DNA of 34,518 nucleotides from NCBI GenBank assembly GCA_021323735.1, contig JAJPKM010000029.1, forward strand, positions 1 to 34,518, in the 5' to 3' direction. A program made the position numbers and the translations under genes. Shown in pieces: positions 9,909-34,506 of this stretch (its first letter is position 1; every line of letters begins with the position of its first letter). The notes beneath the pieces were generated by a model, which saw only the letters and a program-made list of their open reading frames with translations, made no database searches and was not told where the DNA came from. The stretch is from Gammaproteobacteria bacterium (GTDB taxonomy: Bacteria; Pseudomonadota; Gammaproteobacteria; Steroidobacterales; Steroidobacteraceae).

Positions 9909-11219
9909 ATGAAACCGCAAATTTCTTGTAGCCCAAGGCGGGACTGGCTCGCTGCGACGGGATGTTGGGGAGCGGCGGTCGTCACGATGCCGCTGCTTCT
10001 GACCGGCTGCGGCCATCGGGCACCGCCCGCAGCAGCTCCCCCGCCGCCGAAGGTTTCAGTCGTCACCGTGCAAGCCCGGACGGTTCCGATCACCACCGAG
10101 CTCCCGGGAAGAATCACGGCTCGTCGCACGGCCGAAGTGCGCCCGCAGGTGAGCGGAATCATTTTGAAGCGGCTGTTCGTCGAAGGCAGCGAGGTGCGGG
10201 CGGGGCAGCAGCTCTATCAGATCGACCCGGCGCCATACCAGGCCGCCTACGACAGCGCCGTCGCGGCAGAAGCCTCCACCCGCGCCCTCTTCGAACGCTA
10301 CAAGCCGCTGGCCGAAGCCAACGCCGTCAGCAAACAAGATTATGACAACGCCCTTGCCGCCCATTTGCAAAGCCTCGCGGCAGTGGAGACCGCGCGCATC
10401 AATCTGATCTACACCAAGGTGCTCTCTCCCATCACCGGCCGCATCGGCCGCACCTTCATCACCGAAGGCGCGCTGGTCACCGCCAACCAGGCCACGGCGC
10501 TCGCCACCGTCCAACAGCTCGATACGGTATACGTTGATGTGACGCAACCGAGCAGCGCCCTGCTGCGGCTGCGGCGCGAGGCCGCCTCCGGCCGGCTGAA
10601 GCAGAACGAATCAGGCCAGACGCAAGTGCGGGTGAAGCTGGAAGATGGCAGCGACTACGCGCATGCCGGTACCTTGGAGTTTTCCGAAGTCACCGTAGAT
10701 CCGGGGACGGGATCCGTCACGCTGCGCGCGGCGATGCCCAATCCCGAGCGCCTGCTGCTGCCGGGCATGTTCGTGCGCGAACAGATTCAGGAGGGAGTTC
10801 GCCCGGGCACGGTGCTCGCGCCACAGCAGGCCATCGGCCACGACATCAAAGGCGAACCCACCGTACTGGTCGTGGGAACGAACGACATCGTCGAGCTGCG
10901 AAACCTGCAGACCGGTGCCGCCGTCGGCGATCAATGGATCGTCACGTCGGGCCTGAAGGCCGGCGAGCGCCTCATCGTTGAAGGGTTGCAATTCGCCCGA
11001 CCCGGCTCGAAGGTAGTCGCCGAGACATATCGCGCGCCGTCGGACGGAGCACCGTCGGACGGACAAGCCGCGCGAGAAGCCGCCGCAGCGCCGCCCGCAC
11101 CAGCTGCCATCACGCCTGCGCCAGCTGCCATCACGCCTGCGCCAGCTGCCATCACGCCCGCACCAGCTGCCATCACGCCCGCACCAGCTGCCGTCGCGCC
11201 CGCGCAGCCTGCCGAGTAG
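9909..11219 (+). CDS. RND efflux periplasmic adaptor (membrane fusion) lipoprotein, AcrA/MexA type
   Basis: This 436-residue protein is the periplasmic adaptor that links the inner-membrane RND pump to the outer-membrane channel. It has a lipoprotein signal with lipobox L-L-T-G-C, Cys34 being the lipidation site. Two lipoyl half-motifs (V-R-P-Q-V-S-G-I-I near 77-85 and [10 protein letters not shown] near 171-180) flank an alpha-helical hairpin at about 110-165. The beta-barrel (D-T-V-Y-V-D-V near 205) and membrane-proximal domain follow to about 375. Beyond this the protein has an unusual Ala/Pro tail of about 60 residues, including A-P-S-D-G twice and a 7-residue unit repeated five times (398-432). 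The ATG at 9909 has GAGGA upstream. The RND pump gene starts 5 bp after the stop, so it is the first gene of a pump operon. The substrate cannot be read from the sequence; the closest family is hydrophobe/amphiphile efflux (HAE1). Confidence 0.94.
11100..11204 (+). repeat. Five tandem 21-bp units encoding a 7-residue Pro/Ala repeat
   Basis: Five head-to-tail 21-bp units lie inside the 3' end of the adaptor gene, at 11100, 11121, 11142, 11163 and 11184. Each encodes P-A-A-I-T-P-A (the last one P-A-A-V-A-P-A). The first two units are identical, units three and four are identical to each other and differ from the first pair at two third-codon positions, and the last is diverged. This pattern points to slippage duplication with little time for drift. 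Being in frame, gain or loss of units changes only the tail length. Confidence 0.95.
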
Positions 11220-27559: not shown

Positions 27560-27711
27560 GATGGACAGCGACGCTGAATGGTCGTGTCAAGCTTATCGCG
27601 ATCAGCCGATGGAAGTCGAACAACGCGCATAAATTGCAGGTCTTTTCCGCCGACTGCGACGATCCTATACACTCGCTTGATGAAGGGCGGCTATCTGGCA
27701 CTGCACGGCAA

Positions 27712-27789
27712 TTGGCCGGCACTAAGGGTTTCATTTGGCCGCCAATAAGGGTTTCATTCGGCCGGTACAAGGGCTTACAATTAGCCGGT
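27712..27789 (+). repeat. 23-bp tandem repeat, three units plus a partial fourth
   Basis: Three head-to-tail 23-bp units lie at 27712-27734, 27735-27757 and 27758-27780, and a fourth begins at 27781. Each starts TTGGCCG or a near variant (unit 3 TCGGCCG, unit 4 TTAGCCG) and contains AAGGG followed by TTTCAT or CTTACA. Units one and two differ at only a few positions. The series ends at the ATG at 27790 of the DUF4143 ATPase, which lies in the fourth unit. Because 23 is not a multiple of three, it is not a protein repeat. Binding sites of an autoregulator, or the multiple terminal repeats of an IS21-type element end, are possible explanations. Confidence 0.9.
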
Positions 27790-29064
27790 ATGGCTGCAAT
27801 CCTATACCGTCGATTGGCGGAAACCGCCCTCATCACCGCACTCGCGGACACGCCAGTCGTCCTCATCCACGGGCCGCGACAATGCGGGAAGACCACTCTC
27901 GCCCTCCAAGTCGGCAAACGTCGACGATTTCGCTATTACACCTTCGACGATGCCGCAACACTCGCCGCCGCACGGTCGGACATTACTGGCTTCGTCTCGC
28001 GCCTGGAAAAGCGTGCAATATTAGACGAAGTCCAGCACGTCCCCGAGCTATTTGCCGCCCTCAAGCCTATCGTTGACGCAAACCGTAACGCCGTGCGTTT
28101 CATTCTAACCGGCTCATCGAATGTCCTGCTGATTCCTCGTTTATCAGACTCGCTGGCCGGCCGCATGGAGATACTGCGCCTTTACCCGCTCTCACAGGTC
28201 GAGCTCGAGCGTGCTCGCCCAACCTTTCTTGATACCCTCTTCAGCGATGCACAGTCATTCCGACATAGCGGAAGTCTCGGTAAGGAACTGGCAGAACGCA
28301 TCGCTCGCGGCGGCTACCCCGTGGCCCAAAACCGGACGCCAAAGCGAAGAGACGATTGGTACGCGAACTACATAGAAACCCTTGTCCAGCGTGACGTGAG
28401 GGATCTCTCTCACATCGGAAGCCTTGATGCTCTGCCAAAGCTTCTCACGCTTGCCGCGAGCCAGACTGCGCGGCTCGCCAACTTAAGTGAGATGGCGAGC
28501 CAGTTCGAACTCAGCCGCCCGACTATCCGCAGCTATCTCACACTAATCGAGCGACTGTTTTTGGTCGAATTCCTGCCACCCTGGTTCAGTAATCGCATCA
28601 AACGACTGATTAAAAGTCCCAAACTCCACTTTGGCGATACCGGCTTGGCCTGCAGTCTCCTTCACTGCAGCGCCGCCGAACTCGACGGCCAGCGCGACCT
28701 GCTCGGTCAGCTACTCGAGACATTCGTATTTGGCGAAATTGAAAAGCAGGCGGGTGCTCATCCCGAAAGGATTAACCTCCATCATCTACGCGACAAGGAT
28801 GGTTATGAGGTCGACATCGTGGTGCAGCGAGGCACACACCACGCCGGCATTGAAGTCAAGGCGGCGAGTTCGGTCCGCGAAGGCGACTTCCGCGGGCTAA
28901 AACGCTTGCGTGAACTGCTAGGTCGTCCTCGCTTCCACAGCGGAATCATCCTATATGACGGCGAACATGTATTGCCGTTCGGTGAGCGTCTACTGGCCGT
29001 CCCGCTCAGCTCATTATGGGTTCGTAGCCCGCGGCCTGCCACCATCGCAAGTCAATCGAAGTGA
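27790..29064 (+). CDS. AAA-type ATPase with DUF4143 (PD-(D/E)XK-like) C-terminus
   Basis: This 424-residue protein belongs to the large family of P-loop ATPases with a DUF4143 C-terminal domain. Walker A is G28-P-R-Q-C-G-K34-T-T, a Walker-B-like A-I-L-D79-E80-V-Q is present, and a sensor-like I-L-T-G-S-S-N follows near 105-111. A winged-helix segment (T-I-R-S-Y-L near 245) leads into DUF4143, which ends with Y-E340-V-D342-I-V-V and G-I-E355-V-K357, the layout of a PD-(D/E)XK nuclease core. Cellular function is unknown in this family; members are frequent in accessory DNA. I chose ATG 27790 because it begins the conserved Y-R-R-L start; the frame extends to 27634 but that part covers the 23-bp tandem repeats. 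No neighbour is co-transcribed. Confidence 0.85.
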   Translation: MAAILYRRLAETALITALADTPVVLIHGPRQCGKTTLALQVGKRRRFRYYTFDDAATLAAARSDITGFVSRLEKRAILDEVQHVPELFAALKPIVDANRNAVRFILTGSSNVLLIPRLSDSLAGRMEILRLYPLSQVELERARPTFLDTLFSDAQSFRHSGSLGKELAERIARGGYPVAQNRTPKRRDDWYANYIETLVQRDVRDLSHIGSLDALPKLLTLAASQTARLANLSEMASQFELSRPTIRSYLTLIERLFLVEFLPPWFSNRIKRLIKSPKLHFGDTGLACSLLHCSAAELDGQRDLLGQLLETFVFGEIEKQAGAHPERINLHHLRDKDGYEVDIVVQRGTHHAGIEVKAASSVREGDFRGLKRLRELLGRPRFHSGIILYDGEHVLPFGERLLAVPLSSLWVRSPRPATIASQSK

Positions 29065-29144
29065 GCGCGTATGCGGTGTACCGGGGGGTTAATCGAGATG
29101 CTTCAAATTCTAGAGGCCAAAGCGTTTCAAGCAGTTGCGTTTAA

Positions 29145-29336
29145 AGTGGCGGAGAGGGTGGGATTATTCGCGCTGCGCGCTCACCCTGCGGGCCGCCGTC
29201 GGAGAGACCTCCGGCGTTCAACGCGGCCAGACGGCTGCGTTAGTGCTCGCGGCCGGGGACGGCCGCTCGTCCTCCGCTTCGCTCCGGACCGACGCTTTCG
29301 CGTCGTCCCAAATCGCTCCGCGATTTGGTCGAACCC
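29145..29336 (-). repeat. tRNA-Ser 3'-end copy with inserted hairpin array (copy A)
   Basis: The block opens at 29145-29165 with 21 bp identical to the 3' end of the tRNA-Ser gene and its flank (34412-34432). Instead of continuing with the T-loop, it runs into 79 bp of short hairpins (29166-29244), then 92 bp (29245-29336) that match copy B at 34252-34343 with one mismatch. The 92 bp contain palindromes such as arms CCAAATCGC and GCGATTTGG at 29308-29328, GACGC/GCGTC and GGACG/CGTCC, and end in TCGAACCC, which is the tRNA sequence that should have followed. The array therefore sits exactly inside a duplicated T-arm. No open frame here is credible. The adjoining 29337-29442 shows nothing else. 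Confidence 0.88.
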
Positions 29337-29442
29337 CACATAGACGCAAATAGAAATCAGTAAGTCGCTGAAAAATTGAGGCTCGCCGTCCCCTAGAATC
29401 CGCTCTCTTCCCCGCTTTTGGCAGTAGATTTCGCAGTAGGCC

Positions 29443-29625
29443 TCACTCAGCGCGGTTGCGCAGTTCGCGTTTGGCGGCGCCCCAGTCGATCGGCTGCTCC
29501 TTGCCTGCATCGTGACGCACAACGGTCTCGCGGAGTGCCTCCTCGTGCCAGGGTGGAGATTCGAGCTGGGCTTCCTCTTGGCCTAACGGCATCCGGATTT
29601 TGAACAGGTGCAAACGGCTCTTCAT
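29443..29625 (-). pseudogene. Addiction-module antitoxin remnant (C-terminal half)
   Basis: The last 45 residues of this frame, with E-S-P-P-W-H-E-E-A-L-R-E-T, then G-K-E-Q and I-D-W-x-x-A-K-R-E-L-R, follow the pattern of the putative addiction-module component family (antitoxins of RelE/ParE-like toxins). The N-terminal part that should carry the dimerisation helices does not match and is only 15 residues long, so the gene looks truncated or rearranged. The frame is continuous with the DUF2442 fragment upstream, without a stop between them. No toxin gene follows: the tRNA-derived hairpin array (copy A) begins within about 100 bp. I read this as the dead remainder of a toxin-antitoxin locus. 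Confidence 0.5.
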
Positions 29626-29670
29626 GGAAATGTTGCCCAGATTGTCACGTCTGTCGAGAACCTCTCGAAC

Positions 29671-30047
29671 GCGAGGCCGACCCCCTCGTTTACCATTAAG
29701 GCGGGAGCTAGACGCCTTGCGCGCAGAAGTACTCGATCCCGCATAGCGCGCCAGCTCGCTCATCCATGCCTTCGAACCAAAGACACCGGCAGCGAGTCCA
29801 GCGACACTCAGGTCCGCATCCAGCCCCTCCCAATGCAGTCCGGTGCCCAAAGGGGTCAACTCTACTTTCGCAAGCTGCGACGCCGTGGCGTTCTTCAACC
29901 CTGCAATAACTTTGGCGGTAACATCAGAATCACGCCATTCGTAAGCTCAATCACAAGACGAGATTTGCGCGCATCGTAATGCGCCTTGGCGGCGCGAGGC
30001 TGTCTCGCCAGGCGCGTTTCGCCCGCCTTGGTCGCGCGCGTCCCCAA
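29671..30047 (-). pseudogene. DUF2442 protein gene broken by a frameshift
   Basis: Two adjacent minus-strand frames together spell a DUF2442 protein. The first part (from a TTG near 30047) includes Q-P-R-A-A-K-A-H-Y-D-A-R and L-V-I-E-L-T-N-G-V, and ends at a TGA right after L-L-Q-G. The second frame, one base off, resumes with L-K-N-A-T-A-S-Q-L-A-K-V-E-L, G-T-G-L-H-W-E-G-L-D-A-D-L-S-V and G-K-R-G-G-R-P-R. Adding one base near 29896-29903 would restore a single chain, so a one-base deletion (or a sequencing error) broke it. DUF2442 proteins are usually antitoxin-like partners of DUF4160 proteins; no DUF4160 gene is present upstream. The second frame then runs without stop into the addiction-module remnant. 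Confidence 0.65.
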
Positions 30048-30358
30048 AAACGAGCATTACCGCTGACCAACGATAGAAGACTCCACCGCGTGCGAAACCC
30101 ACCTCCCGGCGCCAGTAACTCGCGCGTTTTGGGCGGGAAGTTGGCGTAGAACGAAAGTGCCAGACCGGTTCGGACTAGGCGTCAATGCGGCAACTAATCT
30201 GAACATACCATTCGGCATCAGCGAACGAGTTGGGGCGCATGCGAGGATTTCCAACCCTGCATTCATTATACGGCATGGCCATTCGCCCGAACAGACTGCC
30301 GCTGCGGATGGAACTCCTATATATACGCGTCGGCAGCCTACATTTCCTGGAGCTTCAA
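30048..30358. other. Gene-poor stretch upstream of the dehydrogenase
   Basis: This 311-bp stretch lies between the broken DUF2442 gene and the dehydrogenase. Open frames on both strands (for example minus 30057-30266) have no recognisable domain. A TATATATA at 30319-30326 could be part of a -10 region for the dehydrogenase. I see nothing else I can support. Confidence 0.5.
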
Positions 30359-31237
30359 ATGAAGGACTTCAAAGATAAAGTCGCCGTTGTCACTGGCGCG
30401 GCAAGCGGTATCGGTCGCGGCATGGCCGAGACCTTCGTCGCCGCAGGTATGAAGGTGGTGCTAAGCGACATCGAGCAGCGGCCGCTCGAAGAAACTACTC
30501 GCCTATTGCTTGCAGCTGGCGCGGATGTGCACGCTGTGCTGACCGACGTGTCAAAGTCAGATCAGGTAAATAACTTGGCGAAGCAAACGCTAAGTAAATA
30601 CGGCGCAGTGCATGTGCTTTGCAACAACGCCGGCATTGGTGGACTTAGCGGCGATGGCAACGGCACTAGCTGGACAAGTTCTCTCGACGATTGGCATTGG
30701 ATACTGGGTGTCAATCTCATGGGCGTCGTGCACGGTATTCGTTCGTTTCTACCGATCATGATTGAACAAGATACCGAGGCCCACATCGTGAACACCGCTT
30801 CGTTGGCAGGACTCATCGCAGCTGGCACGCTGTACGGAACGAGCAAATTCGCGGTGGTGGGCCTCTCCGAGAACGTGTATCTAGAACTGCAGCGCGGCGG
30901 GTTCAAACCGAAGGTGTCGGTTTTGTGCCCCAGCTTTGTCGACACCAATATCATGAACTCCAACCGAAACCGGCCAGCGGAATTCGCGATCGAGACGTCG
31001 GCGCACGCGGAGCCGGTAGCGGCAGCGATGCGGGAGTGGGTCACGGAGCAATGCAAGAGAGGCTTAAGTCCGCGCGCTGTAGGCGAACAAGTGCTGGCCG
31101 CCATCCGCGATGAGCGCTTCTACATTCTGACGCATCCCGAGTTCAACCCGATCATCGAACTACGGATGAAAGACATACTGAGTGGCGCAAATCCCACCCT
31201 ACGGCCACCGCCTAGCGTCGCCGCCCGAGACGGTTGA
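30359..31237 (+). CDS. Short-chain dehydrogenase/reductase
   Basis: This 292-residue protein is a classical SDR, a Rossmann-fold NAD(P)-dependent oxidoreductase. The cofactor motif T-G-A-A-S-G-I-G is at residues 12-19 and N-N-A-G at 89-92. The catalytic set S148, Y159 and K163 is present (N-T-A-S and L-Y-G-T-S-K). The Asp at the end of the second strand (L-S-D37) favours NAD over NADP. I chose ATG 30359 because GGAG lies 8 bases upstream and it begins the conserved F-x-x-K-V-A-V-V-T-G start; an upstream open frame adds 43 unrelated residues. The substrate cannot be told. It seems to be a single-gene unit inside the accessory region. Confidence 0.93.
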   Translation: MKDFKDKVAVVTGAASGIGRGMAETFVAAGMKVVLSDIEQRPLEETTRLLLAAGADVHAVLTDVSKSDQVNNLAKQTLSKYGAVHVLCNNAGIGGLSGDGNGTSWTSSLDDWHWILGVNLMGVVHGIRSFLPIMIEQDTEAHIVNTASLAGLIAAGTLYGTSKFAVVGLSENVYLELQRGGFKPKVSVLCPSFVDTNIMNSNRNRPAEFAIETSAHAEPVAAAMREWVTEQCKRGLSPRAVGEQVLAAIRDERFYILTHPEFNPIIELRMKDILSGANPTLRPPPSVAARDG

Positions 31238-31502
31238 GTGAGATTGAGATCCTGAATATCAGCAGGAGTTCCTTTCCTCGAGCGACATGAGTTGACAGAG
31301 ATCGTCCCTCCCCTTCTAAGTTGGCTCAAGGCTCGGAGCAGCCTGCCGCTTGCACCCCGTTTTGCCGATGAGACCTTCAAGGCTTCTATTCCTACCCTGA
31401 GATTGTTTCGGCTCTAGATTGGCTGGGCGAGGCTTCAGGAGATCCCTGCCGGGTTGTGGACCAGCGCGGTAGAGTGCTGAGACCCCCAAACCAGACCGGA
31501 TG

Positions 31503-32102
31503 TTAGGCCCAATTTGACGCCGCATCATCCTGGTGGGAGAAGTCGAGGTACGCGCACTCGAAAAAATTCATCAAGCCAGCCATCACCTCAGGAAGATTGT
31601 CGAGATCAATACCCTGATCGCCGAATGCGAACGGTAGACCGCGAAGCGTTGCCGGAAACCGGAAGCTGTCGGACCTCTTGTCTGCCTGATCCAGTTCCGC
31701 GACAAGCACCTGCACCGGGCTGAGGCCGATGGTCTGCTCTCTGCCACGCTCAATCACTAAAACAACAAACTGCTTCCAAAGAGTAGCAAGATCGTGCGTG
31801 ACCGTCGCATCCCGGTTGATGGAGGCGAATTTCAGGATAATGCGCTTTAAGTGGAGCTCCACGGACTGCCGATAGCAGAACGGCGCTGCGTATATGACGT
31901 TATTACGATCGACGACGTTCGCCGCAGCCTGCTCAACAAGGAGATCGGCCGCGCGGCTGTATCCCATGGGCATTCGGTAGAGGCGTTCGTTCGGATCCCT
32001 AACGACTTGAGCATCGTATGCCCATGATCCTTCAACAAAGAGACGATAACCGTCGCGAGGCCAGGGATCCTCAAAACCCACGCCCTTAGTTCCCGTAGTC
32101 AT
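31503..32102 (-). CDS. HEPN-like hypothetical protein
   Basis: This 199-residue protein has no catalytic domain I can name for certain. Its centre, Y-R-Q-S-V-E-L-H-L-K-R-I-I-L at 77-90 followed by T-H-D-L-A-T-L-W at 102-109 and later S-F-R-F-P at 146-150, follows the pattern of HEPN-like helical proteins, in which a helix ending in E-L-x-L-K-x is followed by H-D-L. HEPN proteins are common in defence and toxin systems, often as RNases, but the R-x4-6-H active motif is not clear here. The ATG at 32102 has AAGGGG upstream, which favours it over the longer frame. It is divergent from the two-gene nuclease unit at 32429, separated by 326 bp. Confidence 0.6.
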   Translation of the reverse strand: MTTGTKGVGFEDPWPRDGYRLFVEGSWAYDAQVVRDPNERLYRMPMGYSRAADLLVEQAAANVVDRNNVIYAAPFCYRQSVELHLKRIILKFASINRDATVTHDLATLWKQFVVLVIERGREQTIGLSPVQVLVAELDQADKRSDSFRFPATLRGLPFAFGDQGIDLDNLPEVMAGLMNFFECAYLDFSHQDDAASNWA

Positions 32103-32365
32103 GTGATTTCCCCTTCTCGCCGCGCTCCTCAAAGTGATGGGACGTCATCACAGCTTAGCCTGCCACGTTGACCGGGGATCCGGCGTCCGCCTTTCCGAGA
32201 AAGCGCGGCCGGCGGCGCGCCGAGTTACCGCCCACGCATCATCAGGGTTTTCGGCACTCAATCGCGATGGATCCGCGCCCGGACTCCGTCGAGGCTCGCC
32301 TCCATTGACGGATCGGAATCGCAGTCTCGCGAGCCCGCTACGCATGTGAACCGGTCATTGAACTC

Positions 32366-32412
32366 TTGCGCTCTACGTACTAATACACGTATACTATTAC
32401 ATATAGTAGTAC
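32366..32412 (+). promoter_or_regulatory. Promoter with nested inverted repeats before the nuclease unit
   Basis: An AT-rich island in the otherwise GC-rich 326-bp gap (32103-32428) carries a plausible sigma-70 promoter: TTGCGC at 32366-32371 and TATACT at 32390-32395, 18 bp apart. Two inverted repeats overlap it. The inner has arms TACTAT (32392-32397) and ATAGTA (32403-32408); the outer has arms GTACTA (32377-32382) and TAGTAC (32407-32412). They would cover the -10 box and start site, as a repressor operator does. No regulator gene is obvious unless one of the neighbours is autoregulatory. The rest of the gap shows nothing I can name. Confidence 0.5.
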
Positions 32413-32428
32413 TTATGGATGAACATAG

Positions 32429-33307
32429 ATGACCGAATCCGCGCCGCAGCACACGGTTCCCGAAACTGTGCTTTCGCCGAAGGGAGCGGTTGCGAACCTG
32501 CACATCTTGCAGAACACGGGAGAGGGAGGGTGGGCGCTTGCCTCCATGCAGTGGGAGGGTCGAGACTCTCTCGGGATTCGGTGGAACGGGACCCCGGAAA
32601 ATCCGATCGGAAATCCGCAGTCCCGCGGCATTCCGACGTGGTTCATCCTCCCCGACGAAGTGGCCGCGAAACTCCGAGACCCTGCATTGGGGGGACTAGA
32701 CGAGAGCAACGCGGACGTGACGCGTGTTCGGGTTCGGCCGCTGCCCTACCGAATTTGGCATGGTGAACAACAGGAGCCCCTAGATGATGAGTGGGTGATG
32801 TCGGTGACAGACCGCACCCGTCGACTTCTTGAAATTATGAATCCCCGGACTGGCCATTTCATGGCTGTGCACCCTGAGCAAATTGTGAGGTTGGTGCGAG
32901 ATACGGTGAGAGATCTTCCGAGCGGTCCGAAGCACGGCATCCTCGAACTAAACGTGCAAATGATTTTCGAGAACGGTCAACTTAGCCTCGAACCGGTGGA
33001 GACCCTCTCGGCGCGGCTCGACTTGGTAGCGTGCGAATTGGATGAACACGGCTATGAGGGTCGGAGCGAACTGCTTAGAGCGTTGATCGCGGAGGCGAGA
33101 ACATCATTGACGGGGTCCGACGGAGCGCTCGGACCATGGGAAAAGGCCGAACTCGAGTACGCCGAGGCGGCAGTGAACACTAATTTTCTGAGGCTCGCGC
33201 TCACCTGCATAGACAAGGCGATAGCGGTCCACAACCTGCCCGATCAGGACTACGAATATGGGTTTAATTATGGACGCTGGCCGACTGGCGGAGCACCACG
33301 GCCGTAG
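32429..33307 (+). CDS. Hypothetical protein, first gene of a nuclease two-gene unit
   Basis: I do not recognise a named domain in this 292-residue protein. The N-terminal 100 residues look like a compact beta-rich domain: W-A-L-A-S-M-Q-W-E-G-R, then G-I-R-W-N-G, I-G-N-P-Q-S-R-G-I-P-T-W-F and I-L-P-D-E-V. The rest is mainly alpha-helical, with a Glu/Ala-rich helical stretch from about 205 to 265. No signal peptide or membrane helix is present, so it should be cytoplasmic. ATG 32429 has GGA 8 bases upstream and follows the promoter at 32366. The Mrr-like nuclease gene starts 11 bp after its stop in the same direction, so they are probably co-transcribed and work together; it could be a specificity, sensor or inhibitor partner. 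Confidence 0.7.
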   Translation: MTESAPQHTVPETVLSPKGAVANLHILQNTGEGGWALASMQWEGRDSLGIRWNGTPENPIGNPQSRGIPTWFILPDEVAAKLRDPALGGLDESNADVTRVRVRPLPYRIWHGEQQEPLDDEWVMSVTDRTRRLLEIMNPRTGHFMAVHPEQIVRLVRDTVRDLPSGPKHGILELNVQMIFENGQLSLEPVETLSARLDLVACELDEHGYEGRSELLRALIAEARTSLTGSDGALGPWEKAELEYAEAAVNTNFLRLALTCIDKAIAVHNLPDQDYEYGFNYGRWPTGGAPRP

Positions 33308-33318
33308 TCGATCGCACG

Positions 33319-34191
33319 ATGCCCAACCTACGCTCCGTTGATGTGCTCTTCCTGAACGACCTCTTCGAGATGGGCAGCGGGTACGTGCTCAATTTTTCAA
33401 ATGCCACCTTCGGAGACTTTTTTCGAGAAGAAGTGGGCATTGACATCGATGACTCGCGTTACGATGTCGATGGCACATCGAAGGCCAAGCGGCTGCGCTA
33501 CTTTTTGAGGACTGCGGATGCCGCGACGGCGGTGCGAGCACTTGAGGCCCTGTGGGAGTATCGGGAAGCCCTTCGGCGGCGCGCTCGGAAACCGGAGTCC
33601 CTTGAGGACCCACAGTCCGAACTTTCCTCACTGATTGCGCGACTTCAAGGGAAAGGTCCGAGCACACCGCATGCTACGGCCTTCACCGCTACAGGCGTTA
33701 ACCGGTCGGTCCTAACCTCGATGCGTTCCGAACTCGTGGCGCTATCAAGCCTTGAACCACAACCGCGGGGCTACGAATTTGAGAAGTTCCTAAAAAGATT
33801 CTTCGATGCTTCCGGGCTCGCGGGCCGCGATCCCTTTCGCCTGCGCGGCGAACAGATTGACGGGAGCTTTCTACTACGAAGCGAAATCTATCTTCTCGAA
33901 GCGAAGTGGCAGAATGCACCCTGCGGGGCTGAAGATCTGCACGCCTTCCACGGCAAAGTGGACCAGAAAGCCGCCTGGGCGCGGGGCCTATTTATCAGCA
34001 ACTCCGGGTTTACGGAGGATGGATTAATCGCGTTTGGGCGGGGGAAGCGAGTTATCTGCATGGACGGCCTGGATCTATACGATCTCTTGGATCGCGCGAT
34101 CCCGCTCGAGCACGCTCTAGATCTCAAGGTTCGACGGGCGGGGGAGACCGGACTGCCATTTCTTCGAATTCGTGATCTATTTCCAAAATAG
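33319..34191 (+). CDS. Mrr-like (PD-(D/E)XK) nuclease with AbiJ-type N-terminal domain
   Basis: This 290-residue protein ends in a restriction-endonuclease-like domain of the Mrr type (about 148-260): G-Y-E153-F-E-K-F-L, then I-D181-G-S-F and Y-L-L-E194-A-K196-W, which gives the D...ExK active site with the upstream Glu. The later G-L-F-I-S-N-S-G-F-T is also typical of Mrr-like enzymes. The N-terminal 90 residues (M-G-S-G-Y-V-L-N-F-S-N-A-T-F near 18-31 and S-K-A-K-R-L-R-Y-F-L near 54-63) resemble an N-terminal domain found in abortive-infection (AbiJ) and other defence proteins; I recall this from family knowledge and cannot verify it here. A nuclease with such a domain next to an unknown partner suggests phage defence. 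The active site is intact. Confidence 0.8.
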   Translation: MPNLRSVDVLFLNDLFEMGSGYVLNFSNATFGDFFREEVGIDIDDSRYDVDGTSKAKRLRYFLRTADAATAVRALEALWEYREALRRRARKPESLEDPQSELSSLIARLQGKGPSTPHATAFTATGVNRSVLTSMRSELVALSSLEPQPRGYEFEKFLKRFFDASGLAGRDPFRLRGEQIDGSFLLRSEIYLLEAKWQNAPCGAEDLHAFHGKVDQKAAWARGLFISNSGFTEDGLIAFGRGKRVICMDGLDLYDLLDRAIPLEHALDLKVRRAGETGLPFLRIRDLFPK

Positions 34192-34197
34192 AGACAC

Positions 34198-34220
34198 CAA
34201 AATCGCTCCCGGCGATTTTG
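34198..34220. repeat. Perfect hairpin after the nuclease gene
   Basis: Arms CAAAATCGC (34198-34206) and GCGATTTTG (34212-34220) form a perfect 9-bp inverted repeat around a 5-bp loop, 7 bp after the nuclease stop. It could act as a weak terminator, although no T-run follows. Its core AAATCGCTCC...GCGATTT is almost the same as the hairpin found in both tRNA-derived arrays (29308 and 34315). Confidence 0.8.
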
Positions 34221-34232
34221 TAATGTAACGAC

Positions 34233-34343
34233 TGGCGGAGAGGGTGGGATTGCTCGCGGCCGGGGACGGCCACTCGTCCTCCGCTTCGCTCCGGACCGAC
34301 GCTTTCGCGTCGTCCCAAATCGCTCCGCGATTTGGTCGAACCC
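34233..34343 (-). repeat. tRNA-Ser 3'-end copy with inserted hairpin array (copy B)
   Basis: Bases 34233-34251 equal the last 19 bases of the tRNA-Ser gene (34414-34432). The next 92 bp (34252-34343) match 29245-29336 of copy A with a single A/G difference (34272) and end in TCGAACCC, the tRNA sequence that should have followed directly. Copy B lacks the extra 79 bp of copy A. It lies 70 bp from the tRNA gene end, just before the terminator hairpin at 34374. No protein-coding role is credible. Confidence 0.88.
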
Positions 34344-34373
34344 GGGTAGGTTCGTCCACACACCCTGCACCTG

Positions 34374-34413
34374 CTGAAAATAAAAAGGTCCCGATGGGAC
34401 CTTTTATTTTCAG
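34374..34413 (-). terminator. Rho-independent terminator of tRNA-Ser
   Basis: An 18-bp inverted repeat with one bulged A abuts the tRNA CCA end. The G/C core is GGTCCC/GGGACC around a 3-base loop, and A-rich/T-rich arms flank it, so transcripts from the minus strand end in TTTTTATTTT. It would work in both directions. Confidence 0.88.
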
Positions 34414-34506
34414 TGGCGGAGAGGGTGGGATTCGAACCCACGTGCCGGAATTACCCGACCATCCGATTTCGAGTCGGCGCCGTTATGACCACTTCGGTAC
34501 CTCTCC
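34414..34506 (-). tRNA. tRNA-Ser(CGA), reads UCG
   Basis: The minus strand folds into a serine tRNA of 93 bases including an encoded CCA (34414-34416). The acceptor arm pairs GGAGAGG (5' end, 34506-34500) with CCTCTCC, followed by G as discriminator. The anticodon arm is CCGA-CTCGAAA-TCGG with anticodon CGA. A long variable arm typical of class II tRNAs lies between it and the T-arm, which contains GGTTCGAATCC. The terminator starts directly after CCA. Two partial copies of its 3' end lie at 29145 and 34233, so the gene appears to have served as an insertion site for accessory DNA. Confidence 0.95.

Follow-up and report, generated by a model that had tools for sequence, protein, structure and literature searches.

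The window analysed here, a 34,518-nucleotide stretch of DNA, carries a tRNA-Ser(CGA) gene on the minus strand at 34414..34506, identified by ARAGORN and by Rfam model RF00005 (50.2 bits), together with two hairpin arrays on the same strand that incorporate parts of this gene. Read on the plus strand, the tRNA gene runs ...GGGATT followed by CGAACCC, and both arrays occupy the junction between these two motifs in the T-loop. In the tRNA sense, each array, together with its borders, forms a unit that begins with GGGTTCGA, the T-arm 5' half, continues as a chain of hairpins, and ends with AATCCCACCCTCTCCGCCA, in which the 3' end of the tRNA itself is repeated from T-loop to CCA. The tRNA-Ser(CGA) gene and its flank are identical at the ends of two contigs, C36 (window 34414-34506) and C31 (L029:3-95), which probably adjoin at this gene.

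The unit closer to the tRNA gene, unit A, is separated from it by a terminator-like hairpin with a 10-pair stem followed by a T-rich stretch (34383..34405, minus strand), so that unit A would be transcribed only by read-through. The scan for terminators is weak on its own, since it returned 7 sites against a mean of 5.4 in shuffled sequences. The left border of unit A (34336..34366, minus strand), read by eye, first repeats the tRNA 3' end in inverted, degenerate form (AGGGTG..GGACGAACC) and then gives the direct T-arm 5' half. An 84-base hairpin chain follows at the T-loop position (34252..34335, minus strand), and the unit closes with a 19-base tail made up of AATCCC, the acceptor 3' strand and the CCA of tRNA-Ser(CGA) (34233..34251, minus strand). 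On the plus strand, copy A therefore reads as 19 tRNA-identical bases up to GGGATT at 34251, 84 bases of array, and TCGAACCC at 34336. A lone hairpin, AAAATCGCCGGGAGCGATTTT, of the type found in the unit on contig C5, stands directly after tail A on the minus strand (34199..34219); it may be the beginning of another unit, split by the block of genes that separates the two copies.

Unit B has the same plan and is longer. Its T-arm 5' half (29329..29336, minus strand) is followed by a 163-base hairpin chain (29166..29328, minus strand), which comprises the 84-base array of A with one mismatch and 79 further bases, and by a 21-base tail identical to the tRNA 3' end plus the two bases after CCA (29145..29165, minus strand). 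The plus strand accordingly shows 21 tRNA-identical bases to 29165, 163 bases of array, and TCGAACCC at 29329. At the junction, one T is either common to both parts or duplicated. An exact repeat of 19-21 bases of the tRNA end is far beyond chance. Unit B also contains a conserved family core, AACG-hpB-hpC-GA-hpD-GAATAATCC (29161..29220, minus strand), which is recognised at 39.7 bits (E 1.2e-8 for the genome) by R1, a covariance model of the core built from 12 units of the organism's own genome, genus and family, two rows of which are not letter-exact. R1 reports no core in unit A. When the copies are folded as RNA, the z-score is -3.40 for A together with its left border (34231-34370), with none of 200 shuffles as stable, and -2.13 for B, with 5 of 200. 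Unit B is the full unit with the family core, unit A is a shortened unit, and the gene block came between them. The initial annotation had described both copies as the 3' end of tRNA-Ser split in the T-loop, with 92 bp in common (one mismatch) and 79 bp only in B, and this description is correct (the common part measures 92-93 bases). It had overlooked two points: the 79 bases present only in B hold the family core, and the copies are separated by about 5 kb of genes.

This gene block (29443..34191, about 5 kb) encodes a DUF2442 protein (29443-29898), a short-chain dehydrogenase (30362-31237), a protein with an Mrr-type restriction endonuclease domain (33319-34191), and two open reading frames without a Pfam match at E <= 0.001 (31503-32132 and 32429-33307). 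No match to Phage_integrase was obtained in the five open reading frames tested between the units (29.4-34.2 kb). A DUF4143/AAA_14 protein adjoins unit B. Some of the genes beside and between the units (DUF4143/AAA_14, Mrr_cat, SDR and DUF2442; window 27634-34191) are of kinds that are frequent in defence or toxin-antitoxin settings. Elsewhere in the window, a 21-base tandem repeat of 5.3 copies with 93% matches (11092-11203) lies within a 436-residue open reading frame (9909-11219).

A second locus of the same genome combines units with other genes. At tRNA-Ser(TGA) (C5:100.4-115.7 kb; L059 and L074), a phage-type integrase gene lies directly behind the tRNA, and about 14 kb away there is what looks like the old 3' part of this tRNA, displaced together with its RtT-type unit. 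A second unit follows and holds an NYN-domain gene. Together with the block in the window, this makes two loci at which genes stand between or inside units. A candidate selenocysteine tRNA at C5:114.2 kb was rejected, as the displaced 3' part of tRNA-Ser(TGA) behind the integrase island would be a simpler reading. Between a tRNA-Asn gene and its unit (L037:1576-2950) there is a segment of about 1.3 kb with short repeated ends like those of an insertion sequence, presumably IS481-like.

A search of the organism's own genome with copy B found arrays behind other tRNA genes, with a tail that varies with the tRNA. The array-bearing tRNAs that were read are Thr(TGT), Thr(CGT) with two tandem units, Glu(CTC), Pro(TGG) with two units, Asn(GTT), Ser(GCT) and Ser(GGA). 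Overall, the units of this genome trail Ser, Thr, Pro, Glu, Asn and Arg tRNAs, and one at a Gln tRNA is decayed. Over 138 bases, the array behind tRNA-Ser(GCT) on contig C38 shares 90% identity with window B, and each of the two tails matches its own tRNA. At E <= 1, model R1 matches the genome in 20 places, and in 16 of these the E-value is below 1e-4. Thirteen of these 16 strong core matches lead into a tRNA tail in which 0-3 of 19 bases differ, and seven of the tails are perfect, including six of Thr, Pro, Asn and Ser tRNAs; among the 13 is one (C28:510) that precedes its tRNA gene instead of trailing it. The remaining strong matches comprise one with a decayed Gln tail (8 differences; C52:81992) and two without a tail (C55:65951 and C40:60265).

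The association between tails and T-loop sequence was measured with a scan that uses no model of the unit, in which repeats of the last 18 bases of 43 tRNA entries were sought with at most two mismatches over downstream lengths that varied from 2 bases to 34 kb. Repeats were found behind nine tRNAs, all with the T-loop sequence TTCGAATC; the 26 entries with a different T-loop gave none. When a gene present at two contig ends is counted once, this amounts to 9 of 16 tRNAs with TTCGAATC against 0 of 26 others (Fisher p 2.6e-5). Adding two cases recognised by eye, Gln(TTG) with a decayed tail and the displaced Ser(TGA), raises the count to 11 of 16 (p 1.0e-6). The same preference in a detailed set of loci from many genomes (51 of 53 tRNAs) is biased by the fact that R1 ends in AATCC, and only the own-genome scan is free of the model. 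The exact junction in the T-loop noted by the initial annotation is systematic across units. Its view of the array as a distinctive single insertion in a tRNA-Ser fragment is not supported in that form.

The core of a typical unit starts about 54-140 bases behind the tRNA gene, on the same strand. By eye, the usual order of parts is an inverted copy of the tRNA 3' region, a linker, GGTTCGA, a long hairpin, GAACG, hpB, hpC, GA, hpD, GAGTA, and ATCC with the tail. The small hairpins are linked by GA, many have three-base GNA loops (also by eye), and the end of the unit consists of the T-arm 3' half, the acceptor 3' strand and CCA. At tRNA-Thr(CGT), the inverted copy is TTCGAACCCCTGAC and the linker is AGACAAAAAG. 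There is a second form in which the inverted part is made up of the T-stem 3' strand and the acceptor (GGAAGGAT at Gln, GGACAGGAT at Pro). In many units of other genomes the inverted copies are longer than in unit A. When 54 units within 200 bases of a tRNA are compared with that tRNA's reverse complement, the longest match averages 9.80 bases, against 7.43 for other isoacceptors, and it exceeds the other-isoacceptor average in 49 of the 54. Tails can decay while the core persists, as in L080, L086 and L087.

The hairpins of the core are conserved as pairs. Pairing holds in 98.1% of stem cells across an alignment of 103 distinct matches, and changes on both sides occur at 13 of 14 base pairs (248 cells), compared with 2-9 pairs and 7-30 cells in slid controls; fitting the alignment to the model works in favour of this pairing result. 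The stems of the units contain 20 G.U and 7 A.C pairs in 1316 cells, and the tRNA stems at the same loci contain 32 G.U and no A.C in 960. The wobble comparison of 20 G.U with 7 A.C gives p 0.019, and the model itself favours G.U over A.C. The few G.U pairs and the presence of some A.C pairs may indicate that the hairpins are maintained or corrected at the level of palindromic DNA and not of RNA.

The units resemble the RtT repeats of Escherichia coli. In the stretches searched, R1 finds the tyrT/rttR repeats of E. coli K-12 at 51.7 bits (E 4e-14), and the E. coli sequence has its parts in the same order as the units. A single model thus recognises a folded core common to the E. coli repeats and to window B, and of the two window copies this applies to B. 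As with E. coli tyrT/rttR (RF00391), the units lie behind a tRNA on the same strand, carry that tRNA's 3' tail from T-loop to CCA, consist of a hairpin chain with GA spacers and a GAACC..GGTTCGA element, and occur in repeated copies; copy B is some 5 kb from its tRNA. The window itself has two copies 5 kb apart, and tandem repetition is seen at Thr(CGT) and Pro(TGG) of the same genome and in other genomes. Unlike the E. coli repeats, the units of this genome stand behind Ser, Thr, Pro, Glu and Asn tRNAs, behind Arg, and in decayed form behind Gln, and the window arrays have more hairpins and about 5 kb of genes between the copies.

The window copies also score below the curated cut-off of RF00391, which is 45 bits. 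Copy A matches over the full length of the model (34254-34379) at 27.9 bits and copy B partially at 18.9 bits, so we class the two as divergent RtT relatives and not as members of RF00391. Among relatives, the matches are mostly full length, with L090 (Gln) above the cut-off at 47 bits and the others at 30.8-41.3. Six of 12 named loci exceed the cut-off: those at Marinobacter tRNA-Ser (52.5 bits), Thioalkalivibrio tRNA-Gln (60.7) and tRNA-Ser (46.9), and tRNA-Tyr of Enterobacter, Salinisphaera and Aquisalimonas. RF00391 matches 62 of 274 genomes of the class at E <= 0.01, only 18 of them above the cut-off, and E. coli alone among 14 control genomes. Taken together, these comparisons make us highly confident that the units are of RtT type.

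Parts of the pattern have been described before. One study places the Pasteurellaceae RtT relatives Arrc20 and Arrc21 near tRNAs other than Tyr (Asn and Lys), so that RtT-type units at more than one tRNA are already known; compared by description, these share the family and the non-Tyr setting with the present units and differ in being described upstream of tRNA genes (PMC4986893). The same study mentions a role for RtT RNA in E. coli and Northern signals for two relatives in Actinobacillus pleuropneumoniae (PMC4986893). Two further sources list a 175 bp VNTR at Salmonella rtT RNA (PMC2658671) and note a tandem GA motif in RtT RNA (PMC7657543). Our search of the mostly open-access literature returned no account of tails and inverted copies specific to each tRNA, or of the spread measured here. 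The initial annotation had raised the idea of a structured RNA made by read-through from the tRNA; the RtT relationship and the A. pleuropneumoniae signals fit this idea, and in the present organism such an RNA is a prediction.

Units are widespread in the class and beyond it. R1 matches 94 of 274 genomes of the class at E <= 0.001. In a sample of 249 genomes of the phylum it matches 57: 23 belong to the class, the organism's own among them, 27 to a single outside family (f204), and the other 7 match more weakly. The detailed set holds 76 loci with 114 R1 matches, of which 67 have a same-strand tRNA within 600 bases, 44 have no same-strand upstream tRNA in the stretch searched (only 9 of these with less than 400 bases there), and 3 were set aside. 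Tails were compared with the nearest upstream tRNA over 16 bases: 45 of the 67 are identical, 50 match at 14 or more positions and 17 at fewer than 14. The unit's own tRNA is the best or tied-best match in 60 of 67, with a mean identity of 14.36 of 16 compared with 9.13 for the other tRNAs of the set, and the 50 units with tails of at least 14/16 span 14 isoacceptor types.

Family f204 contributes four loci to the detailed set, all beside Ser or Gln tRNAs. Eight more f204 loci were picked because their copies looked dispersed; three of these lie behind a tRNA-Ser or tRNA-Gln gene, and the stretch searched shows no tRNA upstream of the other five. An exact core pattern gave 34 matches in 33 stretches of named genomes, including Halopseudomonas, Marinobacter, Thioalkalivibrio, Salinisphaera, Aquisalimonas, Halospina, Enterobacter and others. 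A same-strand tRNA lies at most 2.5 kb upstream in 26 cases, and at least two of the remaining eight (Microbacterium and an alphaproteobacterial MAG) look like chance. A MAG labelled Chitinophagaceae has a core match beside tRNA-Arg with a matching tail (L169:4336-4357; AATCCTGACAGGGTCAC); unless the contig is mis-binned, this unit lies outside the phylum. Genomes G520 and G364 (L279-L298 and L239-L245) hold 55 and 14 core-like copies at E <= 0.1. Of ten copies read there, two are behind tRNA-Lys and eight have no upstream tRNA in the stretch searched, so the core is not confined to tRNAs. From the 12 of 20 loci viewed, the copies in these genomes look like dispersed palindromic repeats of other lineages. 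The matches with tRNA-derived borders that the initial annotation anticipated are thus present at 13 of the 16 strong own-genome places; two strong matches without a tail, one with a decayed tail, one before its tRNA, a weaker one inside a protein gene, and these eight copies depart from that expectation.

Units vary in number and in presence. Near-identical copies are arranged in tandem at spacings of 154-213 bases, and the terminator is sometimes part of the repeat (spacing 183 bases in L133 and 178 in L156); L154 has a spacing of 154. Within the genus, tRNA-Thr(CGT) is followed by units in G000, the genome studied here, and in G007, and none were seen by eye in the 200-300 bases shown for G001, G008, G016 and G020. 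The protein gene mentioned above is dnaE-like, with PHP and DNA polymerase III alpha domains, and carries an 81-base hairpin array in frame (L124:1440-1580; C5, about 76.27 kb) that is a weaker own-genome match to the core. In five relatives the two aligned parts of its protein directly adjoin, leaving out about 27 query residues, and L262 has the uninterrupted reading ...NCADGLKLV... at the position of the array. As for the suggestion that the arrays are small mobile elements, absence from relatives, and hence mobility, is established for this related array outside the window and does not extend to the window copies.

We consider it probable that the units are tRNA-trailing relatives of RtT that copy the 3' end of the neighbouring tRNA, are amplified in tandem and may give rise to a structured RNA by read-through. 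The observations behind this reading are the shared anatomy, the tail that matches the neighbouring tRNA, the covarying hairpins, the tandem copies and the patchy presence. Against it stand the scores of the window copies, with A below the Rfam cut-off and B a partial match, the 44 of 114 matches that have no same-strand upstream tRNA in the stretch searched, the 17 of 67 tails below 14/16, the two high-copy genomes, and the scarcity of G.U beside some A.C pairs in the stems. A rival explanation is a mobile palindromic module of the Rickettsia palindromic element kind, which would insert widely and be commonest at T-loops because copies are tolerated there behind an intact tRNA. The in-frame dnaE-like array, absent from five relatives and L262, recalls the in-frame palindromic arrays in protein genes of Rickettsia (a likeness in setting), and the two tail-less strong matches, the copies away from tRNAs in other genomes, and the C38 array, which is nearly that of window B yet has a tRNA-specific tail, point the same way. 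We nevertheless regard this module as unlikely, because an element of constant sequence would not be expected to have both a tail and an inverted copy suited to each tRNA, and 45 of 67 tails are identical to the nearest upstream tRNA at 16/16; Rickettsia palindromic elements are not known to bear tRNA tails. Mobility of the REP/RAYT type was rejected, as the one transposase family sought, Y1 (PF01797), has no matches in this genome (95.94% complete) and matches in 5 of 14 control genomes. A plasmid or phage origin was likewise set aside, with one weak match to a Serratia plasmid (84% over 56 query bases) and no phage match.

The tRNA T-loop and 3' end are a common integration site, and the tails, which duplicate the tRNA 3' end from the T-loop, could be attR-like repeats left by tyrosine-recombinase islands, with the genes between A and B as one such island. 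The integrase gene directly behind tRNA-Ser(TGA) in the same genome would suit this account, and the units share with integron attC sites and tRNA att sites folded repeats, T-arm symmetry and genes between copies. It is nonetheless very improbable, and the integron version was rejected with it: the five open reading frames tested between the copies contain no integrase, tandem units spaced 154-213 bases apart are too close to enclose a gene, the folded core conserved in the arrays is not known from att sites, and the Ser(TGA) island appears to have pushed its unit some 14 kb away rather than made it. Another reading is that selection in each species keeps the unit as a conserved regulatory RNA, which might modulate the stringent response or act as a decoy for tRNA-processing enzymes, with gene conversion maintaining the tails. 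Strong covariation, wide spread, the reported E. coli role and the Northern signals speak for it. We hold this to be rather doubtful in view of the many decayed tails, the variable copy number and the Thr(CGT) units that only G000 and G007 of the six genomes show in the bases displayed. Chance palindromes in GC-rich intergenic DNA have next to no probability; high G+C does make hairpins common, and copy B folds only moderately better than shuffles, but the own-genome matches, class-wide spread, tail identity and covariation refute this origin.

Under the preferred reading of tRNA-trailing RtT relatives, a hairpin core that was already present would become flanked by direct and inverted copies of the neighbouring tRNA's 3' end, the likeliest route being a template switch of the polymerase at TTCGAA, the palindrome in the T-loop. 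The T-loop preference fits template switching because TTCGAA is palindromic there, and we put this origin forward, from sequence patterns, as a possibility somewhat short of likely. Units would then multiply by unequal recombination between the tails of about 20 bases. RNA polymerase reading through the terminator would transcribe the unit with its tRNA, and the 3' processing of tRNAs, cutting at the unit's own CCA, would set free an RtT-like folded RNA that ends in CCA and is closed by a stem in which the tail is paired, as has been reported for RtT. The chances that such putative processed RNA is made from the units seem to us evenly balanced; a regulatory role for it is possible and is not needed to account for the units.

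A broader and more speculative proposal, which we hold to be less likely than not, is that one palindromic family is found at E. coli tyrT, at many gammaproteobacterial tRNAs, in one outside family and rarely in a protein gene, and that tRNA 3' ends serve as the templates for its multiplication. Each new unit would be an inverted and a direct copy of a TTCGAAT tRNA around a DNA hairpin core, making a selfish repeat with custom borders and without an enzyme of its own. The repeats at E. coli tyrT, a long-standing curiosity, have, to our knowledge, mostly been treated as the oddity of one operon, with a small RNA of uncertain role. With tails of at least 14/16 behind 14 isoacceptor types, borders that match each unit's own tRNA and a patchy presence, the question shifts from the job of one RNA to how a repeat copies the ends of tRNAs.
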